Origin: Flammeovirgaceae bacterium
GTDB taxonomy: Bacteria; Bacteroidota; Bacteroidia; Cytophagales; Cyclobacteriaceae
Direction of reading: 5' to 3'
DNA: 64,000 nucleotides
Assembly (NCBI GenBank): GCA_027487845.1
Contig: JAIYCV010000013.1
Span: 1 to 64,000 of the forward strand
In this document: in pieces, positions 12,146 to 49,588 of the stretch
Layout of the letters: every line of letters starts with the position of its first letter
How positions within the stretch are numbered: position 1 is the first letter of the stretch
Translations under genes and position numbers: made by a program
The notes under the pieces: model-generated
What the model was told of the DNA's origin: nothing
Seen by the model: only the letters and a program-made list of their open reading frames with translations
The model's database searches: none

Positions 12146-13960
12146 TCATTTTTTCTTCTTGGCATCTGCCGCTTTTCTGGCTTCTTCGCTTGCTTTCATA
12201 GCTTCAGAAAGCTTGTTCATAAACTTGGATTTAGTGGGTGTGCCCGTGGCTGCTTTCTTTTTATTTTCTTCAATAATGGCTTTGATTTTATCTTCATCTA
12301 CAAATCGCTTGATGATTGCCTGCTGAGCAAAAGTGGCCAAATTCGACACTAAGTAATAAAAGCTCAAGCCCGCAGAAAATGAATTCAGAATGAACATAAA
12401 CACTACTGGCATAATGTAGCCCATTGATTTCATCGGGCCTTCTACTGTACTCATTTGATTGTTTTGCCAAGTGGCAATCAATTGGGAAACGGTCATTAAC
12501 ACCACAAACAAACTGATGTGGCTTCCAAAGCCAAACGGAACGGTAAAAGGCAACTGTATCAACGAATCATAAGTTGATAAATCATCGGCCCACAGAAATG
12601 TTTTTTGCCTCAACTCAATACTTACCGGAAACAGCGAGAACATAGCCAACAAAATGGGCATTTGTAGGATCAGCGGAATGCACCCACTAAATGGATTTAC
12701 TCCCGCTTGCTGATACAATTTCATTTGGTCTTGCTGCTGTTGAGCTGCATTGTCGCCATTTTTCAATTTGATGGCATCTAACTCTGGCTTTAACAGTTTC
12801 ATTTTGGCCATGCCAATGAAAGAGGAGTAGGAGAGTGGTGCCAACACCAGTTTTACAAAAATTACAAGTATCACAATGATCAACCCATAGTTGCCAATGA
12901 AGCCTTCCAAGAAATGAAATACGGGTATGATCACAAACTTATTGATCCAAATCATAGGAGGCCAACCCAATGACAAGTTCAGCGAGAAGTCTTTGGTTAC
13001 ATCGGGCGTGATGCGGTAGTCGTTCGGGCCAAAATAGTATTTGAAGTTGGCTTTGTTGGCAAGCACATCGGCTTTGGGAATAAACAGTTTTACATTGGCT
13101 TCTTTTACGGTGGTGGAATCGCGCTCATTGCCCTGCGTGCTTATTTCACCACCTGAAAAAGTATTTTTGGCGATGATGGAGTTGATGAAAAACTTTTGCC
13201 GAATGGCAATCCATTTAAGCGGCTTCGCAAAGGCTTCTGTTTTTAGCTCCATGGCCGATTCGCTTAACCCGTCAAACTTTTCTTCTGCTAAGTAGTAATT
13301 GATGGTGGTTTTGGTGCGCGAATCGTGAATGTCTTTTTCAACCAATGGAATTTTATCGTTCCAGGTAAATGTTAGCGATTCACCTGTTAAAGAGCCACTT
13401 AATCCGTTGGTTTCAATCTTGTAGCCCACCTCAAACCCACTTGCCGGCACAGAGTAAATATGCTTTATCGAAGCACCCTTATCCAAGTTAGCTTCGAAGG
13501 TTACCACCGTAGTATCGCCAATTTTACTGGTAGCTGCTTTATAGTATAGCGAATAAATATTGACCTCTTTGCCTTCATACTGACCTACCAGCGCAAAGGA
13601 ATTAGTCTTAGGGGAAACTAAAAAAAGCGGCTTCTTGGTGTAGGTCTTATAGTTTTTTAGCTCCAAATTCTTAATCGTTCCATGGTTAGAGAAAGAAATG
13701 CTCAAATCTTTTGAGTCGATGTTTGTTACGGATTCTGATCCAGACAGGTAGGCAGAAAGATTTCCATACTGTTTTATCGCTGCACTGTCTGTTGTTGGTT
13801 GGGCGATCTGGCTTTTTTTAACCGAGTCAAGAGGTGCAGTTTGTGAGGCTATTACCTGATCTATTTTCTCTTGAGGAATTGGCTTTGCTGCAAAAAAATA
13901 GAAATACACTAATAATAGGGCGGCAATTAAAGTTAAGCCAATAGCTGAGTTCCTGTCCAT
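12146..13960 (-). CDS. yidC: Membrane protein insertase YidC
   Basis: Inserts membrane proteins with or without SecYEG. The 604-residue protein has an N-terminal membrane segment (about 7-25), a large periplasmic beta domain (about 60-330), and the conserved C-terminal insertase core from about 350 to 560 with YGLIIVILVIFVKLVLAPLSY, the PILLAMFSLFPVSIELR loop and FYYLVSNLATFAQQ. A Lys/Ala-rich tail typical of Bacteroidota follows. It lies downstream of pyrG, separated by the repeat at 13994-14107. Confidence 0.97.
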   Translation of the reverse strand: MDRNSAIGLTLIAALLLVYFYFFAAKPIPQEKIDQVIASQTAPLDSVKKSQIAQPTTDSAAIKQYGNLSAYLSGSESVTNIDSKDLSISFSNHGTIKNLELKNYKTYTKKPLFLVSPKTNSFALVGQYEGKEVNIYSLYYKAATSKIGDTTVVTFEANLDKGASIKHIYSVPASGFEVGYKIETNGLSGSLTGESLTFTWNDKIPLVEKDIHDSRTKTTINYYLAEEKFDGLSESAMELKTEAFAKPLKWIAIRQKFFINSIIAKNTFSGGEISTQGNERDSTTVKEANVKLFIPKADVLANKANFKYYFGPNDYRITPDVTKDFSLNLSLGWPPMIWINKFVIIPVFHFLEGFIGNYGLIIVILVIFVKLVLAPLSYSSFIGMAKMKLLKPELDAIKLKNGDNAAQQQQDQMKLYQQAGVNPFSGCIPLILQMPILLAMFSLFPVSIELRQKTFLWADDLSTYDSLIQLPFTVPFGFGSHISLFVVLMTVSQLIATWQNNQMSTVEGPMKSMGYIMPVVFMFILNSFSAGLSFYYLVSNLATFAQQAIIKRFVDEDKIKAIIEENKKKAATGTPTKSKFMNKLSEAMKASEEARKAADAKKKK

Positions 13961-13993
13961 GATAAAATTTAGTGAATAGTTGAGATTTGATTT

Positions 13994-14107
13994 AAAGCCT
14001 CACCCCGTCCGAGTGAGTGCTGGGTGCTTATTTCAGCTAACCCCTCTCCACAGGAGAGGGGAATAGACGAGCCATGAGTACTTCTTGTTAAGTTGGGGTG
14101 AGGCTTT
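13994..14107. repeat. Nested inverted-repeat (REP/MITE-like) element
   Basis: Outer arms of 13 bp are perfectly complementary: AAAGCCTCACCCC at 13994-14006 and GGGGTGAGGCTTT at 14095-14107. Inside lies a perfect 9-bp hairpin CCCCTCTCC (14041-14049), loop ACA, GGAGAGGGG (14053-14061). The GC-rich arms contrast with the surrounding AT-rich DNA. It fills almost the whole pyrG-yidC gap and could fold in the transcript on either strand. The wording resembles dispersed CCTCACCCC..CCCCTCTCC intergenic repeats of many bacteria. Confidence 0.75.
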
Positions 14108-14111
14108 AGCA

Positions 14112-15731
14112 TCAAGGATTTGATTTTTTGTGCGTTAGAGCTGCCTCCACGAATTTAACAAATAGCGGACTTGGGCTTACTACGGTACTTCGAAGTTCCG
14201 GGTGATACTGCACGCCAATAAACCAAGGATGATCTTTCAATTCAATCACTTCCACTAAGTTATTGTCTGGATTTACTCCCACCGCTTTTAAGCCAGCCTC
14301 TTCAATTTGTTCTAAGTATTTATTGTTGAATTCATAGCGGTGGCGATGCCGTTCGTGGATCAGCGTTTCGCCATAAATACCATGGACTTTTGATCCTTTC
14401 TTCAGCTTGCAAGCATAGGCACCCAAGCGCATCGTTCCTCCTTTCGAAGTAATCTTTTTCTGTTCCTCCATCATGTCGATTACCGGATGTTTTGTCTTGG
14501 GGTTTAATTCCGTTGAGCTGGCATCCAATCCCAATACATTTCTGGAAAATTCTACTACTGCGCATTGCATGCCTAAACAAATTCCCAGAAATGGTATTTT
14601 GTGTTCCCTCACATATTTTATGGCGGTTATTTTTCCTTCTAGGCCGCGCTCGCCAAACCCTGGGGCAACTAATACGGCATCTAAACCCTCCAGCACGTGC
14701 GCAACGGATTCCGGGGTTATATCTTCGGATGAAATCCATTTCAAATTTACCGTGCATTCATTTACTGCGCCCGCGTGAATAAATGATTCGGCTATTGATT
14801 TGTAGGCATCTGGCAACGACACATATTTTCCTACTAAACCAATAGAAACTTCTTCATTTGGGTTCTTTAATTTTCCAAGGAAATCCTTCCATTGCTCTAG
14901 CTCAGGCTCATGTTTAGTAGCCACTTTCATTTTTGCCAGTACGCGCTCATCTAGTTTCTCTTTCTTCATCAGAAGCGGCACATCGTAGATGGTTTCTGCG
15001 TCCATGGCTTCAATTACAGAATTCAAATTTACGTTGCAGAAAAGCGCCAATTTTTTTCTAAGCTCATTGTTTAGAGGATGTTCCGTTCTGCAAACCAGAA
15101 TATCGGGCTGAATTCCGTACGACAAAAGTTCTTTTACAGAATGTTGCGTAGGTTTTGTTTTGAGTTCTTTGGCAGCTTTTAGATAGGGAACAAGTGTTAA
15201 ATGGATTACCAACGCGTTGTTCGAGCCAAGATCCCACCGCACTTGCCGCACGGCTTCTACAAATGGCAACGATTCGATATCCCCAACTGAACCGCCAATT
15301 TCGGTAATAATAAAGTCGTATTGGCCGCTTTCGCCCAGAAGGTAAATATTGCGCTTTATCTCGTCTGTAATGTGCGGAACAACTTGAACCGTCTTACCTA
15401 GGTACTCGCCTTTTCGTTCTTTGGTAATCACATTATTGTAGATCCTACCTGTGGTAATATTATTGGCTTGTGAGGTGGCAATGTTCAAAAACCGCTCATA
15501 ATGACCTAAGTCTAGGTCGGTTTCAGCACCATCGTTGGTAACATAACATTCGCCATGCTCGTAAGGGTTGAGCGTACCCGGATCGATGTTGATATAAGGG
15601 TCAAATTTCTGAATGGTGACGGAAAAACCCCTCGATTGCAGCAGTTTGCCCAGCGAGGCGGAAATAATGCCTTTGCCCAACGAAGAGGTAACACCACCGG
15701 TAACGAAGATATATTTGGCCGTAATTGACAT
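14112..15731 (-). CDS. pyrG: CTP synthase
   Basis: ATP- and glutamine-dependent amination of UTP to CTP. The 539-residue protein has the N-terminal synthase domain with [10 protein letters not shown] at residues 12-21, [19 protein letters not shown], and the C-terminal class I glutamine amidotransferase domain with the nucleophile Cys in FLGICLGMQ and the His/Glu pair in GVQYHPE. Length is typical. The stop codon lies 4 bp beyond the inverted repeat at 13994-14107. Confidence 0.98.
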
Positions 15732-16307: not shown

Positions 16308-16544
16308 GTTCGTGCTGGTAATATTTAGCCTTTCTAGGGCACCAGCAAAATGCTGGTTTTTCAGCGGGTGCGAGATTGTAAATTTGCCCCATCTTCTGCT
16401 TTAGTGTGTGCGCTATTTCCGCGGAAGCGTTGCCATTGCCATAAAGCCGGCTCGTGCTGGCAAAAGGTTTTTTTTGATCATATCAATGAATTGGGATATA
16501 ATAGGATTTTCATCTACTTCTGCGAATCAATTCGCTTCCGATAT
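16291..16544 (-). pseudogene. Decayed 3' end of a second wecB
   Basis: On the minus strand this reads, after a frameshift, KPFASTSRLYGNGNASAEIA..., which aligns with KPFESASRLYGDGNAAEKIA at the end of the intact wecB (17153-18235). Before the shift NPIISQFIDMIKK aligns with NLIISQFKELINK, and still earlier GSELIRR corresponds to GANRLAG, with stops in between. The similarity begins at the toxin stop codon and fades near 16390; the open frame runs to a TAA at 16291-16293. It is a broken remnant of a diverged wecB copy, not a functional gene. Confidence 0.8.
16341..16361 (+). terminator. Intrinsic terminator
   Basis: ACCAGC (16341-16346) pairs with GCTGGT (16352-16357) around loop AAAAT and is followed by a T-run to 16361. 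It terminates the rightward 143-residue membrane protein gene. Confidence 0.6.
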
Positions 16545-16802
16545 TTATTCGTAAACGTCTTTTCTGTTGCCAATGGTTATAACGTCAACAATTAATTCAT
16601 TATCTAAGACGGTGTATATGATTCGGTAATTTCCCACACGTATTCTATAACCCGCTCTGCCTTTTAACTTTTTGTAACCAAATGGACGTGGGTTTTCTTC
16701 AAGTGTTTGTAATGTCTTTATTATAGGCTCAGCAACACTATCGGAAAGATTATCTAATTGCTTTCGAGCTTTTTTAGATAAGATGATTGAATAGCTAGCC
16801 AT
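16545..16802 (-). CDS. RelE/ParE-family toxin
   Basis: An 85-residue protein with the RelE/ParE fold signatures: IILSKKARKQLDNL at the N-terminus, NPRPFGYKKLKGRAGYRIRVGNYRIIYTV in the core and VDVITIGNRKDVYE at the end. The Arg-rich core fits mRNA interferases of the RelE type, although ParE-like gyrase action cannot be excluded. Its start overlaps the antitoxin stop by 8 bp, the typical coupled arrangement. Its stop codon abuts the decayed wecB fragment. Confidence 0.88.
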   Translation of the reverse strand: MASYSIILSKKARKQLDNLSDSVAEPIIKTLQTLEENPRPFGYKKLKGRAGYRIRVGNYRIIYTVLDNELIVDVITIGNRKDVYE

Positions 16803-16998
16803 GTTTGGCCTGTCTTGTTTTCAAATAGTCAGCCAGTGAAATTCGACTTCCATCATCTTCCTTTTTTGCTTCATCGAAAAGTCTACAATCCTCCTGATCT
16901 TCCAGTTCCTCGATTAGCGTATCAAACTCATGAAGGGAAAGAACAACCAGCTTTTCTCCTGCGGTGTCAGTAATGATTTGTGGATGCAAGTTGATCAT
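16795..16998 (-). CDS. Antitoxin of RelE/ParE pair (Phd/YefM-like)
   Basis: A 67-residue acidic protein. The segment PQIITDTAGEKLVVLSLHEFDTLIEELED resembles the Phd/YefM or RelB N-terminal DNA-binding and dimerisation region; the remainder would wrap the toxin. It overlaps the toxin start by 8 bp and is the first gene of the pair. Assignment rests on size, position and the short VVLSLHEFDTL match. Confidence 0.8.
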   Translation of the reverse strand: MINLHPQIITDTAGEKLVVLSLHEFDTLIEELEDQEDCRLFDEAKKEDDGSRISLADYLKTRQAKHG

Positions 16999-17152: not shown

Positions 17153-18235
17153 TCATGCACAATTTTGATTGCCCAGCATCTTCGCAATCTTCTCCGCAGC
17201 ATTTCCATCACCATACAATCTGCTTGCGCTTTCGAAAGGTTTATTAATCAATTCCTTGAATTGTGAAATAATGAGATTTTTCTGCGCTCCTGCCAATCGG
17301 TTGGCTCCCACTTCAAGAAGTTCTATCCACTCGGTTTGATCGCGCAAGGTGATACAGAATTTATGGAAGAAATAGGCTTCTTTTTGGAGACCCCCACTGT
17401 CGGTCATAACAAGACTGCAGTGCGCTAGCAACGCAAGCATATCAAAATAACCAACTGGATCTATTGTAGAAGCTTCAATAATAATATTTTGTGATTGAAT
17501 AAATGCTTTGGTACGTGGATGAAGTGGCAGCACCACTTGCACCTGGCTATTAATTTCATTCACCGCTTCAATAATGTTTCTTAACCTTACGGGATCATTT
17601 GTGTTTTCAGCGCGATGAAGTGTAGCCAACACAAAGTGCTTTCCTTCTAGCTTTTGCTTTTGAATTACGGTGGAATGAGTTTTTACTTTTTCTTTGTAAT
17701 GAAGAACAGCATCGTACATAACATCGCCTACCTGCATAATTTCGCAACCGAAATTCGCAAAGCCTTCTTTCTCTAAATTGGTAATGGCTGTTTGCGTAGG
17801 GCAGAACAGTAAATTGCTTATGCGATCGGTTAAGATGCGATTGATTTCTTCGGGCATTTTCATTTCGAAACTTCGCAGCCCGGCCTCCACATGCGCCACC
17901 GGAATGTGAAGTTTAGAAGCCGCCAACGCGCCCGCCAAGGTGGAGTTAGTATCGCCATACACCAAAACATAGTCGGGCTTTTCTTTGATTAAAACTTCTT
18001 CGATTTTCTCTAGCATTCTGCCCGTCATGGCACCGTGATTCAAGCCGCTAATCGAGAGATTGTAGTTGGGCGTTGGTATCTCCATCTCATCAAAAAAAAT
18101 CTGACTCATGTTCTCGTCAAAATGCTGTCCTGTGTGGATGAGAATTTCTGTAAGTCCTTCTTTCCGTAAAGCGCGTGAAACCGTGGCGGCTTTTACAAAC
18201 TGTGGACGAGCCCCAATGATGGTTGCTATTTTCAT
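17153..18235 (-). CDS. wecB: UDP-N-acetylglucosamine 2-epimerase (non-hydrolysing)
   Basis: Interconverts UDP-GlcNAc and UDP-ManNAc for surface polysaccharide synthesis. The 360-residue protein starts KIATIIGARPQFVKAA, has HTGQHFDENMS, the catalytic region VYGDTNSTLAGALAA, HVEAGLRS with MPEEINR, and the UDP-binding C-domain LVMTDSGGLQKEA. Length is typical. No other polysaccharide gene is next to it; instead it is bracketed by two toxin-antitoxin-like pairs and has a decayed partial copy beyond the nearer one. Confidence 0.96.
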   Translation of the reverse strand: MKIATIIGARPQFVKAATVSRALRKEGLTEILIHTGQHFDENMSQIFFDEMEIPTPNYNLSISGLNHGAMTGRMLEKIEEVLIKEKPDYVLVYGDTNSTLAGALAASKLHIPVAHVEAGLRSFEMKMPEEINRILTDRISNLLFCPTQTAITNLEKEGFANFGCEIMQVGDVMYDAVLHYKEKVKTHSTVIQKQKLEGKHFVLATLHRAENTNDPVRLRNIIEAVNEINSQVQVVLPLHPRTKAFIQSQNIIIEASTIDPVGYFDMLALLAHCSLVMTDSGGLQKEAYFFHKFCITLRDQTEWIELLEVGANRLAGAQKNLIISQFKELINKPFESASRLYGDGNAAEKIAKMLGNQNCA

Positions 18236-39051: not shown

Positions 39052-39115
39052 AATTTGAAGATTTGAAAATGCACTAACTATCTTCAAATTTTCAAATCAA
39101 CGAATTTTCAAATTA
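39052..39115. repeat. TTTGAAGAT-type short-word repeat in the metH-metF gap
   Basis: The gap is made of the words TTTGAAGAT, TTTGAAAAT and their complements; ATTTGAAAAT (39061-39070) is the exact inverse of 39088-39097. The block 39080-39106 matches 49561-49587, beside the intact S23 gene, at 26 of 27 positions. No gene lies inside, so it looks like an empty version of the S23-flanking repeat. Confidence 0.7.
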
Positions 39116-39120
39116 TCCTT

Positions 39121-40077
39121 ATGAAAATCTCAGATCACATCAAGAACGCAAACGGAAAAACACTTTTTAGTATAGAAATCTTGCCCCCGCTTAAAGGCGA
39201 GAATATCCAGTTGCTTTTTAGTAACATTGATCCATTGATGGAATTCAAACCGCCTTTTATTGATGTTACCTATCACCGTGAAGAGTACGTTTATAAAAAA
39301 AAGGAAAACGGCTTGTTAGAAAAGCGATCTACCCGAAAGCGCCCTGGTACCGTGGGTATTTGCGCAGCTATCCAAAATCGTTATAAAGTAGATACGGTGC
39401 CCCACATTATCTGTGGTGGTTTTAGTAAAGAGGAGACAGAGAATGCACTTATTGATCTCCAATTCTTAGGTATCGAAAATGTGCTGGCGCTGCAAGGCGA
39501 TGCGATTAAAACAGAACCAAAATTCATTCCAGATCCTGAAGGTCATAAATACGCGTCCGAGCTTGTAACTCAAATCATGCAAATGAATAAAGGGAAGTTT
39601 TTGGACGAAGAACTCGAGAATGCTGCTCCGACTAATTTTTGCATTGGAGTGGCAGCATATCCTGAAAAACATTTTTCTGCTCCGAACTTAAAAACGGATT
39701 TAAAATATTTAAAACATAAAGTTGATTTAGGTGCCGAGTACATAGTGACACAAATGTTTTTCGACAATGAAAAGTATTTTGATTTTGTGGAGAAATGCCG
39801 TGAAGCAGGTATCAATGTCCCTATCATACCCGGAATAAAACCTATTACAGCAAAGGTTCAGTCCACCGTGCTACCAACGATTTTTCACATCGACTTGCCC
39901 GAAGAGTTGGCCGATGAGATTGAAAAGTGCAAAGACAATGCGGCAGTGAAGCAAGTAGGCATTGAGTGGATTATTAAACAATCAAAAGAGTTAATAAAAT
40001 TTGGGGTGCCATCACTGCATTTCTATTCAATGGGCAAAGCCGATCCGATCTATAAAATAGCTAAAGAACTTTTTTAG
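39121..40077 (+). CDS. metF: 5,10-methylenetetrahydrofolate reductase
   Basis: Makes 5-methyl-tetrahydrofolate, the methyl donor for the preceding MetH. The 318-residue TIM-barrel flavoenzyme has FSIEILPPLKG with the catalytic Glu, VTYHREEY, NVLALQGD for FAD contact, NFCIGVAAYPEKH and TQMFFDNEKYFDFVEKCR. It ends GVPSLHFYSMGKADPIYKIAKELF. The order metH-metF behind a SAM riboswitch makes one methyl-cycle operon. Its stop overlaps that of the convergent ATPase gene, and a diverged copy of its 3' end lies 1.3-2.9 kb further on. Confidence 0.97.
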   Translation: MKISDHIKNANGKTLFSIEILPPLKGENIQLLFSNIDPLMEFKPPFIDVTYHREEYVYKKKENGLLEKRSTRKRPGTVGICAAIQNRYKVDTVPHIICGGFSKEETENALIDLQFLGIENVLALQGDAIKTEPKFIPDPEGHKYASELVTQIMQMNKGKFLDEELENAAPTNFCIGVAAYPEKHFSAPNLKTDLKYLKHKVDLGAEYIVTQMFFDNEKYFDFVEKCREAGINVPIIPGIKPITAKVQSTVLPTIFHIDLPEELADEIEKCKDNAAVKQVGIEWIIKQSKELIKFGVPSLHFYSMGKADPIYKIAKELF

Positions 40078-41264
40078 AATAATTCAGCCGCGCGCATTCG
40101 CAAAAATTCTTCGCAAGGAAGACCTCCGCTACCGATCAACAATACCTTATCGGGTTTTATTTCTTTTTGAAAAGCGGCCATTCCCGAGGCTCGCTGCCGT
40201 GCGCCACTTTTTACTTCCAAGCCAATTACTTTGCCACGTTGTTCGAGCACAAAATCCACCTCGTGATTTCGATGCCGCCAATAGTATACCTTGAATCGGT
40301 CGCGGAGCGATTCGTTGATCAAAAATGCACCAATGGAAGACTCTACCATGCGCCCCCAAAGTTCTGTTTTTGAAATGGCTTCAGGAAGCTTCTCCGACCG
40401 TTGCACCGCGAGAAGGGCGTTGTTATGAACTTGAAATTTAGGACTCGAACTACGTACCGACAGCACGTTGGACGAAAACTTTTCGAGCCCACCTAGCAAT
40501 CCTGCGGTATCGAGCAGGTGCAAATAGTTGGCCAGTGTAGTGGTGTTTCCAGCATCTTGTAATTGCCCTTGCATTTTTGTGTATGATAAAATTTGCCCCG
40601 AGTAACTGCATCCCAATTCAAATAGTTTTCTCATCAAGGCTGGCTTATCCACACGGGTAAGCATCAGTATGTCGCGTGAAATGCTGGATTCTATGAGCGA
40701 GTCGGAGACATAATTCCGCCACCGATCGGGGTCATCAATCAGCGGGGCAGCGCCCGGATATCCCCCGAACCAAGTATAGGTATTCACATCCCAGCCAAAG
40801 GCGGCATTCATTTCCGGGAGCGTCCAATGCCCCATAAAAATTGTTTCGAAGCGGCCCGCCAACGATTCGGTCAAGCCTTGTTGTAACAACAGGCGCGAAG
40901 AGCCTAATAGCAAGACCTTGATGGGCAGATTCTGCTGCGTATCTGCGTCCCAATTTTTTTTGACTACTTCGCTCCAGTTCCCAATTTTTTGTATTTCATC
41001 TATTACCAATAGAAACTCAAGGGCTTCCAATTGATGGAGCCGCTGACGCGCTGTGTTCCATTGCTGGTCAATCCACGCAGGGTTTGAGTTGGTATCATCA
41101 GCCGAGACAGAAAGAAAAGGCACTTTCAGTTCCTTCAAAACTTGGTTTACCAACGTAGTTTTACCTACTTGCCGTGGCCCATAAATAGCTTGTAACAGCC
41201 TTCTCGGCTCTTGCAGCCTACTGGCAAGTAATTGATAATGAGTTCTTTTTATTGAATTTGACAT
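40074..41264 (-). CDS. AAA ATPase with DUF4143 domain
   Basis: A 396-residue accessory ATPase. Walker A is GPRQVGKTTL (about 30-39) and Walker B is FLLVIDEIQKI; the C-terminal DUF4143 region contains YYWRHRNHEVDFVLEQRGKVIGLEVKSG, a PD-(D/E)XK nuclease-like core. This family is widespread and patchy in Bacteria and Archaea with no settled function. Two palindromes precede the start (41268-41305). The gene is inserted between the intact metF 3' end and a decayed metF 3' copy, which suggests it arrived by transfer. Confidence 0.9.
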   Translation of the reverse strand: MSNSIKRTHYQLLASRLQEPRRLLQAIYGPRQVGKTTLVNQVLKELKVPFLSVSADDTNSNPAWIDQQWNTARQRLHQLEALEFLLVIDEIQKIGNWSEVVKKNWDADTQQNLPIKVLLLGSSRLLLQQGLTESLAGRFETIFMGHWTLPEMNAAFGWDVNTYTWFGGYPGAAPLIDDPDRWRNYVSDSLIESSISRDILMLTRVDKPALMRKLFELGCSYSGQILSYTKMQGQLQDAGNTTTLANYLHLLDTAGLLGGLEKFSSNVLSVRSSSPKFQVHNNALLAVQRSEKLPEAISKTELWGRMVESSIGAFLINESLRDRFKVYYWRHRNHEVDFVLEQRGKVIGLEVKSGARQRASGMAAFQKEIKPDKVLLIGSGGLPCEEFLRMRAAELF

Positions 41265-41267
41265 TTT

Positions 41268-41305
41268 GCTCAGTATAATGAGTAAATTTACTCAAAGTAT
41301 TGAGT
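41268..41305 (-). promoter_or_regulatory. Tandem palindromes upstream of the DUF4143 ATPase
   Basis: ACTCAAAGTATTGAGT (41290-41305) is a perfect palindrome with 6-bp arms; GCTCAGTATAATGAGT (41268-41283) is a second imperfect copy, 22 bp away centre to centre. The second starts 3 bases before the gene's ATG. Two phased inverted repeats at a promoter are a classical operator layout for a dimeric repressor; autoregulation by the ATPase is conjecture. Confidence 0.55.
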
Positions 41306-41371
41306 AAAATATAATCGAGTCTTTTATTTTTTTATTGCTGCAACAAAGCGGGTCATTTTTTAAAGAACTAA

Positions 41372-42841
41372 TTAGTCGTCCCTTAAAAACTCAATTTTAG
41401 GATTAGAAGATTTTGGATTTGTGATTTTGTGGTTTTAACGAGCGAAAAAAGGCAATTAAAAAGTTGGTTCAAAAAGACAAGTGGGTTTACTTTCCACTTG
41501 TTGATCATGCGTTTGAAGTTCATGGCCGCAGCGGCAAGCATGACATTGATGTTATCGCCCTTTATCCCTTTGTAGTAGTTGCGGCTGAGCCGGTGATCGT
41601 GTTTTAAATGCCCTATCTTAGGTTCTATTGCAGACCTGCGTTTAAACCCGTTGCGCAGTTTTTGTTTTTGATAAGGTGTTCTTTGTTTGCCTGGCTTGTC
41701 AGGGGTAACGATGGTTGTCCCCAATACTTCTTTCACCCCAACATATCCACGGTCAACAAAATTATTTTTTAGCGTGGTCCCCGTTAACCGCTGCTGTTGC
41801 TCAATGGCAGGCTGCAATGTTTTGCTGTCGTGTACATTTTTTTCGATGTTGATCGCCCCGATAATAACACCTGTTGTTTTGGTGGCGATAATGCTCACCT
41901 TACTGCCGAATTCGTACTTCTTGTGCTCTTTGCCTTTGGTCATACATTGGGTGTGCGGCTCGTGCAGGCTATAGATTTTGTTGCTGTCGGATTTCTTTTG
42001 CAGCAATACTTTCTTGAACAGCCCAAGTGTATCTTGATGCAGGCCTGGCGTGAGTTTGCGCTCTAATTCCCTTACCAGCCTACCCGCTATGGTTTTTACT
42101 TTACGCTCTGCTTTCCTCGCCCTCCCTTTATTTTTTGGATGGTTCCTGAAGCGTTGGTCTAACAACAACTTCTTCACCGTGCGTGTATAACTCTGCCGAA
42201 GCTCAATACCTTGCGCTACGGCAATACCCACACACTTCTTGATGATCTTACGGTGCAGTTTACTATCGGTTGGATAGGTGATGTTCTTTTCTTGGACGGT
42301 GGTGTCGGTGGTCGCCTCCTTCTCGCCACCGTCTTTTCCATTTACGCGGATACTTTCCTTCAAGATCAATTCAATCCCTTCCTCACCAATACGGTTACGG
42401 AAGTGGACAAGATCACTGGCCTCACAGGGTGCACCGCAAGCATACGTTCTTTCACCACTAAAGTATTGGTAGTAGATATTTTCAAACCACTGCTCCACAA
42501 CACTCTCATCGCTAAGGTTGCGAACGTGCTTGAGTATGAGCAAGGACACCATCAAACGTATCGGTTTGGCCGGACGGCCCTCTCCTGAATACAACTTGGC
42601 AAACATGGTTTAAAAAATGCCCCACTGGATTTGATTGGCCAAGATATACAGCGGGTGGCGGTGGCTCAATTGTTCAAAGGTGCTGTAAAAACTAAGTTGA
42701 GAGGTAGAAGCTGGTTTTGTAAGCATAAAAAATCTGCAAGGTTTTAAGGATAAAACCCAACTTTCTTGCAGATTGTTTCAACTCAATTCAATCGGTTTTA
42801 TTCAAAAACCAATCCCATTGGGCTTTTTAAGGAGCGACTAA
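41372..42841 (-). mobile_element. IS5-like insertion sequence
   Basis: Terminal inverted repeats are TTAGTCGTCCCTTAAAAA (41372-41389) and its near-complement at 42824-42841, matching at 16 of 18 positions. The element is about 1.47 kb and carries one transposase gene whose stop lies inside the left repeat. TAATTA occurs at both outer ends, but because it is palindromic the exact target duplication cannot be fixed. It is inserted in a decayed metF copy. Confidence 0.85.
41383..42726 (-). pseudogene. IS5-family transposase with in-frame stop
   Basis: The C-terminal 407 residues (41383-42606) form a DUF772/InsH-type transposase with a DDE domain: KLYSGEGRPAKPIRLMVSLLILKH, DTTVQEKN with the first Asp, NNFVDRGYVGVKEV with the second, and RRSAIEPKIGHLKHDHRL with the Glu. 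The natural start is an ATG at 42724-42726; that frame reads LSHRHPLYILANQIQWGIF, then a TAA at 42610-42612, then TMFAKLYS. Homologues continue through this point, so a nonsense mutation separates the first 38 residues. Restart at the ATG 42606 may leave partial activity. Confidence 0.85.
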
Positions 42842-42932
42842 TTAAGTTAACTTCGGAGTGCCATCCTTCCATTTCTATTCAATGGGCAAAGCAGATACCA
42901 CCTATAAAATAGCAGGGAATTGTTCTAAATGA

Positions 42933-42961
42933 AAAGAGGCTTGAATTTTTCAAGCCTCTTT
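42933..42961. terminator. Bidirectional intrinsic terminator
   Basis: AAAGAGGCTTG (42933-42943) pairs perfectly with CAAGCCTCTTT (42951-42961) around a 7-nt loop. It begins one base after the metF remnant's stop, so it is probably that gene's original terminator, and it also ends the leftward SGNH gene. Confidence 0.75.
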
Positions 42962-49545: not shown

Positions 49546-49588
49546 TTTTCAAATTAGCTCATCTTCAAATTTTCAAACCAACGAATTA
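49546..49588. repeat. ATCTTCAAA-type short-word repeat, scoA side of the S23 gene
   Basis: Words TTTTCAAAT and ATCTTCAAA; the block 49561-49587 matches 39080-39106 in the metH-metF gap at 26 of 27 positions. The repeat overlaps scoA: its stop codon (49573-49575) and last four residues NSLV are encoded here. Confidence 0.7.

Follow-up and report, generated by a model that had tools for sequence, protein, structure and literature searches.

Many chromosomal toxin-antitoxin pairs and single-gene defence systems have no transposase or integrase, and the means by which they spread are an open question. A locus that raises this question lies in a 64,000-nucleotide (nt) stretch of a Flammeovirgaceae bacterium (assembly GCA_027487845.1, contig JAIYCV010000013.1, positions 1 to 64,000), here called the window, which is part of contig C47 in a genome of 4.55 Mb and 51 contigs. 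In the window, a gene for an AAA-ATPase with a DUF4143 domain stands between the intact metF gene and a second, decayed metF tail. We consider it likely that this cassette, which comprises the AAA-DUF4143 gene and its promoter, entered at the stop codon of metF while the metF tail was duplicated at length; incoming DNA from a close relative is the route that we favour. The locus contains the following features.

39121-40077, plus strand: metF, the intact methylenetetrahydrofolate reductase gene (Pfam MTHFR, 2e-71; NCBIfam TIGR00676, above cut-off).
39997-40077, plus strand: metF tail, the intact copy of the duplicated part (blastn self-match of 39997-40061 to 42849-42913).
40074-41264, minus strand: cargo gene, an AAA-ATPase with a DUF4143 domain (Pfam AAA_14 and DUF4143; PADLOC PDC-S01, E 6e-178).
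41287-41308, no strand assigned: near-palindrome of 22 nt, TTTACTCAAAGTATTGAGTAAA, in the DUF4143 promoter region (from the sequence and the gap sequences of relatives).
41383-42606, minus strand: transposase open reading frame (ORF) of an insertion sequence (IS), DDE type, a later insertion beside the remnant (Pfam DUF772/DDE_Tnp_1).
42849-42913, plus strand: metF tail remnant, frameshifted, at the native locus (blastn; 58% identity in amino acids (aa), two stops).
42935-42959, plus strand: stem-loop terminator of the original metF (a near-identical stem directly follows metF in locus L034 of a relative).

The order is thus intact metF, AAA-DUF4143 gene, IS and decayed metF tail. The first two genes are convergent and their stops overlap by 4 nt, which bears out the initial annotation, where the metF end at 40077 had been read as overlapping the ATPase stop. 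In a blastn comparison of the window with itself, only two non-self pairs were printed, and one of them is the metF tail pair (65 nt, 84.6% identity, E 3e-13), a long direct duplication that flanks the cassette. The remnant has two stops when read in frame and requires a frameshift to be aligned, it contains an identical block of 23 nt, and the stem-loop lies directly 3' of it; the second metF 3' end that had been proposed in the initial annotation is confirmed by blastn. The same annotation had also assigned to metF the fragment in front of the IS at 41330-41371 (AATKRVI/KELI), and this part did not hold, since 875 of 1000 shuffled sequences score equally high against the metF tail. Continuity with the remnant is possible only for the few bases that adjoin the IS. 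The IS itself extends over about 41368-42842, has terminal inverted repeats and was found in one copy in the assembly. The cassette lacks the terminal inverted repeats and short target duplication of a transposon: the repeats that flank it are direct metF tails, and the IS is a separate, later arrival. Between the metF tails, the ORF list and Pfam revealed only the DUF4143 gene and the later IS, and no integrase was recognised. An Rfam search of the window from 35 to 45 kb gave no match. In addition, a 27-nt repeat (96% identical) occurs at 39080-39106, just upstream of metF, and at 49561-49587.

The relatives reveal the site in its empty state. The genus search comprised 62 genomes, the window's genome included; metF was matched in 53 others, and 40 of these loci were fetched for comparison. 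In the nearest relative (genome G051, locus L034), whose metF is 94% identical to the window's in amino acids, metF is followed directly by the stem-loop and then by an SGNH-hydrolase gene, and the insert is absent. In the window, a near-identical stem-loop and the same SGNH-hydrolase gene follow the remnant, which places the remnant at the original metF end. The empty-site comparison suggested in the initial annotation thus speaks in its favour, as metF of the sister species stands at this place and is followed by the same terminator.

A DUF4143 gene occupies the same metF site, with the same stop overlap, in four of the 40 relatives. This would be expected if an ancestral DUF4143 gene had been inherited vertically beside metF, with the extra tail being an unrelated partial tandem duplication, and the similar nucleotide identities between the window and the carrier clade (76-78% for DUF4143, 75% for metF) fit as well. 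However, the site is empty in the sister G051 (support 100/100 in a metF tree of 24 rows, made up of the window and 23 of the 40 relatives), at least two changes of the DUF4143 label are required on this tree, forced by well-supported branches, and the arrangement is found again with other cargo and at other genes. Vertical inheritance is already disfavoured on these grounds, and we regard it as quite unlikely. Within the carrier clade, the DUF4143 proteins differ by 4.5-8.3% and the metF proteins by 1.3-3.1%, a difference of about 3 times, and between the window and the clade both proteins are about 15% different. This protein divergence suggests that the DUF4143 gene moved after the metF lineages had separated.

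The metF locus is not the only one of its kind. To search for duplicated gene ends, the 45 codons at each end of all ORFs of at least 100 aa were compared with 6 kb on either side. Among the 55 ORFs of the window, only the ends of metF and wecB were duplicated, both of them 3' ends. The second case consists of the following features.

17153-18235, minus strand: intact wecB-like UDP-GlcNAc 2-epimerase gene (Pfam Epimerase_2).
16549-16998, minus strand: cargo, a ParE toxin gene with, upstream of it, a small ORF whose Phd/YefM match is weak and below cut-off (Pfam).
16402-16510, minus strand: wecB tail remnant (end scan).

The wecB remnant matches the intact end with 65% aa identity over 23 residues and 71% nt identity over 85, so the shared architecture of the two loci, already pointed out in the initial annotation, is real. 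As a side observation, wecB ends are highly variable across the genus, and the identity between the window wecB and the partial G051 wecB is only 75%, compared to 94% for metF and for the transporter described next.

On contig C26 of the same genome (a sample of 20 stretches with 341 ORFs), the end of a transporter gene, which we take to be of the MMPL type, recurs (65 nt, 89%) on the far side of a gene for a CPBP (Rce1-like) protease. No clean case was found in 20 further stretches (306 ORFs). In the sister G051, the same transporter end is present twice (101 nt, 94%) and encloses another cargo, which includes a ParE-like gene; either the two transporter cases arose as separate insertions or the cargo of a single slot was exchanged. 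Similarly, G050 has a copy of its metF end on either side of an 86-aa ORF that matches nothing in Pfam or NCBIfam, and its close relative G052 (L043) has an empty metF site, where the metF end and the sequence downstream align with the G050 remnant and the region that follows it over about 330 columns, gaps included. The same gene end can therefore hold different cargo, as metF does in G000 (the window's genome) and G050, and the transporter in G000 and G051. The G050 and G051 loci were fetched for metF or the transporter and are not random picks.

Several scan hits were discarded. On reading, L096, L113, L218, L221 and L226 were taken to be truncated tandem copies, paralogues or a gene that we presume to be RAYT-like, L110 was dropped as its copies lie inside full-length neighbouring ORFs, and L211 and L212 were set aside for the many hits or tandem copies in their scan output, without further reading. 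The case reading left out the hits L125, L127, L230 and L233; L230 and L233 aside, no clean 3' case came from two genomes (164 and 161 ORFs) that belong to other families of the order. In L113 (1840-2750), the RAYT-like gene lies between repeats of the GGCGTCAAGACACCTCAAAGGTGTCAGACGCC type.

Beyond the genus, a class sample provided 22 DUF4143 loci from 395 genomes, with flanks of up to 1.5 kb and some shorter. One of the 22 loci (L085, from another family) has the DUF4143 gene between the intact end of an enoyl-CoA hydratase-like gene and a duplicate of that end (53 nt, 88.7%). A further set consisted of the best 80 of at least 523 named DUF4143 loci, with usable flanks in 76, or in 74 for the repeat comparison, and a clean anatomy was found in two of these best 80. 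In L297, from a metagenome-assembled genome (MAG) of Verrucomicrobia, icd and the DUF4143 gene share a 4-nt stop overlap, as metF does in the window, and the icd tail recurs over 97 nt (90.7%). In L269, from a Bacteroidales MAG, the duplicated ppdK end, terminator included, encloses the DUF4143 gene and three more genes. Across all cases, the duplicated ends measure 53-130 nt. The search of other genomes for accessory genes at duplicated gene ends, which had been recommended from the window alone, was thus fruitful in the genus as well as in other families and a Verrucomicrobia MAG. The clean count among the named loci excludes L283, L317, L289, L273, L294 and L304, and L260 was left as a paralogue. 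Several DUF4143 loci, among them L251, L258, L261, L282, L285-L287 and L308, have direct repeats without a gene-end assignment. Direct repeats of at least 40 nt flank 11 of 74 DUF4143 loci and 7 of 92 control ORFs, an unconvincing difference, and a broad enrichment of DUF4143 between direct repeats is therefore not claimed.

Three loci that were chosen via DUF4143, and hence yield no rates, present further variants. In L280, a RhuM-family fragment behind an FKBP gene has the same footprint. In L284 (5184-6110), a DUF4160/DUF2442 pair downstream of the DUF4143 gene is flanked by a 124-nt direct duplication. In L298 (4174-5060), the start of the DUF4143 gene is present in two copies that enclose two small ORFs, and one of these ORFs has a weak ribbon-helix-helix match; DUF4143 can thus serve as a target and not as cargo alone.

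The initial annotation had proposed that defence-like modules share a way into this genome that uses 3' coding ends as attachment points. Recurrent entry with a duplicated gene end is borne out, and it is supported that small defence-like modules entered this genome more than once with this footprint. The 3' ends are not the sole sites, however, so that the attachment-point idea is only partly supported. In G056, where 355 ORFs yielded no clean case at a 3' end, the duplicated starts of a DUF1801/OmdA gene enclose a SocA/Panacea-type gene, which has an MqsA-like part, and its neighbour (L130, about 13344-15640; copies of about 125 columns). An automated tally over genus samples of 647, 355 and 410 ORFs, window excluded, counted 5 copies downstream of 3' ends, 7 upstream of 5' ends, 3 downstream of 5' ends and 1 upstream of a 3' end; it precedes the reading of cases, and its filter drops copies inside ORFs of at least 100 aa and multi-copy repeats. 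As it contains no 3' excess over 5' ends, a 3'-end bias was not accepted from it. After reading, the genus count stands at five 3' cases (metF twice, wecB, and the transporter twice) and one 5' case in 1467 ORFs (55+341+306+355+410), with some hits unread. Tolerance alone would suffice for a 3' bias, because the gene stays intact when its 3' end is duplicated.

The origin of the second tail can be approached through the differences between the copies, which were compared codon by codon in eight pairs. There are 14, 9 and 53 differences at the first, second and third codon positions, respectively, so the third position accounts for 53 of 76. In two pairs all differences are at third positions and silent, namely the G051 transporter (6/6) and the L297 icd (9/9), and the window metF pair has 11 silent and 5 non-silent differences. 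Simulations (3000 per case) started from an identical duplication followed by decay, allowed silent change in the working copy and used a uniform mutation model. So few non-silent changes arose in none of them for G051 and L297, and in a fraction of 0.002 for the window metF pair. Compared to a third-position expectation of 0.46, which is our own estimate, P is 2.5e-5 for all pairs and 0.008 for the six pairs without G051 and L297. Since an identical start with decay outside the gene should not give an all-silent pattern, the codon comparison argues that in at least two cases one tail evolved inside a working gene elsewhere, and in the window this is probably so as well.

These differences also bear on a plain insertion with a long target duplication, in which an unknown enzyme or break repair would copy 50-130 nt of recipient DNA, leaving two identical tails of which the outer one decays. 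Insertion with a long target duplication has been described for restriction-modification genes in Helicobacter pylori (Nobusato et al. 2000, as cited in PMC1643837, PMC3031569 and PMC4978471). The likeness consists of accessory genes that are present or absent between relatives and are flanked by a long direct target duplication. The cargo here is of other kinds, namely DUF4143 ATPases, a CPBP protease and toxin-antitoxin-like genes, and many of the copies are silently different. In the window, the cargo is AAA-DUF4143 rather than restriction-modification, with no methylase in the ORFs searched. The all-silent differences of G051 and L297 and the few non-silent changes of the window pair oppose a plain duplication. 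Nonetheless, a number of observations agree with it, or otherwise weigh against a tail brought in from a relative. Both window tails have GKAD where 40 of 40 relatives have GKSD, which implies either that the donor was a very close relative or that the tail was duplicated within the lineage. The two G050 copies share a derived post-stop sequence, in L269 only one of four differences is silent and there is no silent excess, and target duplication covers the 5'-end and other cases too. By codon position alone, the window pair (11/16, P 0.057) does not differ significantly from the lenient expectation. No clear breakpoint is visible in metF identity along the gene against G051, the four carriers have a different metF tail (VPLVHF) and no remnant, which leaves the donor unsampled, and the nucleotide identities of DUF4143 and metF between window and clade are alike, as stated above. 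Altogether, plain target duplication is a possible but clearly less probable account.

Insertion with a tail from a close relative remains the reading that we prefer. The insertion relative to the empty site of the sister species, the duplicated tail, the native place of the remnant and the repeated finding of this arrangement with other cargo at other gene ends are observed, whereas the route is inferred. According to it, a one-gene cassette with its promoter would have entered at the metF stop codon, with the metF tail duplicated at length; the working metF would have retained a complete tail, the far-side tail beside the old terminator would have decayed, and the IS would have landed later beside the decaying tail. 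The incoming DNA would derive from a close relative in which the cassette already stood after that relative's version of the gene. On one side, recombination would have run through the homologous tail, and on the other side the joint would have formed at a non-matching point; alternatively, a circle may have entered by a single crossover in the tail. For this recombination route itself, we put the chances at about even. Homology-facilitated illegitimate recombination has been proposed for type VI secretion system immunity arrays and Rhs orphan tips (PMC5361080). There, one homologous anchor and a non-homologous joint would push the old 3' end downstream, as the proposed route would here, but in those systems the new end brings a new toxin, whereas here it is an equivalent tail of a housekeeping gene.

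A different source of a foreign tail would be an integrase island that uses the gene end as its attachment site and carries its own tail, with the integrase since lost or acting in trans. The e14 element in icd of E. coli K-12 is the model for this, with a 165-bp copy, 12 exchanges and 2 conservative aa changes (PMC11148124). As in our cases, the gene end is duplicated, the displaced tail lies on the far side and the differences are mostly silent, and L297 even uses icd too. On the other hand, e14 is a prophage that carries a putative integrase gene of its own, whereas the cargo here consists of one to four genes with no integrase recognised among the searched ORFs between the copies, several unrelated target genes are used, and a 5'-end case exists. 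A remnant island of this type is therefore unlikely.

It may also be asked whether the cargo drives its own entry. The DUF4143 domain is assigned with 89.3 bits for PF13635 compared to a Pfam gathering cut-off of 28.1, and by its match to PDC-S01, a label which we take to denote single-gene phage-defence candidates in PADLOC, the AAA-DUF4143 gene is a single-gene candidate defence cassette. The TTTACTCAAAGTATTGAGTAAA near-palindrome upstream of DUF4143 has similar counterparts in four relatives, similar motifs occur in L081 and L085, and it is possibly an operator. The whole-protein model (mean predicted local distance difference test, pLDDT, of 90) matched AAA proteins, with ORC/Cdc6 and RuvB among the first, at low template modelling scores of about 0.3. 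The C-terminal domain modelled alone (pLDDT 81) had no match at E 0.001 or better, and many of the 50 weak matches listed are nucleases, among them XisH, Hjc, McrBC, Can2 and EcoRV, which are presumably of the PD-(D/E)XK type. D337, E350 and K352 in this domain (D..ExK) are invariant in 40 sequences and would form a PD-(D/E)XK-type site. Homologues, all below 60% identity, occur in 159 of 72,556 plasmid records and 4 of 50,697 phage records. Because the AAA part resembles DNA-handling motors and the C-terminal part weakly resembles PD-(D/E)XK nucleases (Hjc, XisH, McrC), it is conceivable, as a long shot, that the protein cuts or processes the gene tail of the empty allele and homes into it, as a transposase-free homing system aimed at gene ends. 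The silently different tail of the cassette would then protect the carrier, and toxin-antitoxin pairs and CPBP proteases would ride the same break-repair route.

A narrow literature search did not find the footprint described for DUF4143 or for toxin-antitoxin pairs. With respect to PDC-S01, which the cargo matches in sequence and whose defence role is predicted, the new element here is the genomic footprint of movement. The footprint around small modules hints at movement without a transposase, and a shared entry route for these modules is likely, its mechanism being a proposal. The duplicated end is an easy search target, which can date insertions and reveals re-used gene ends, and where the copies differ at silent sites it can separate native from incoming sequence. 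If many defence modules show this footprint, it would offer a direct, testable route for their spread.

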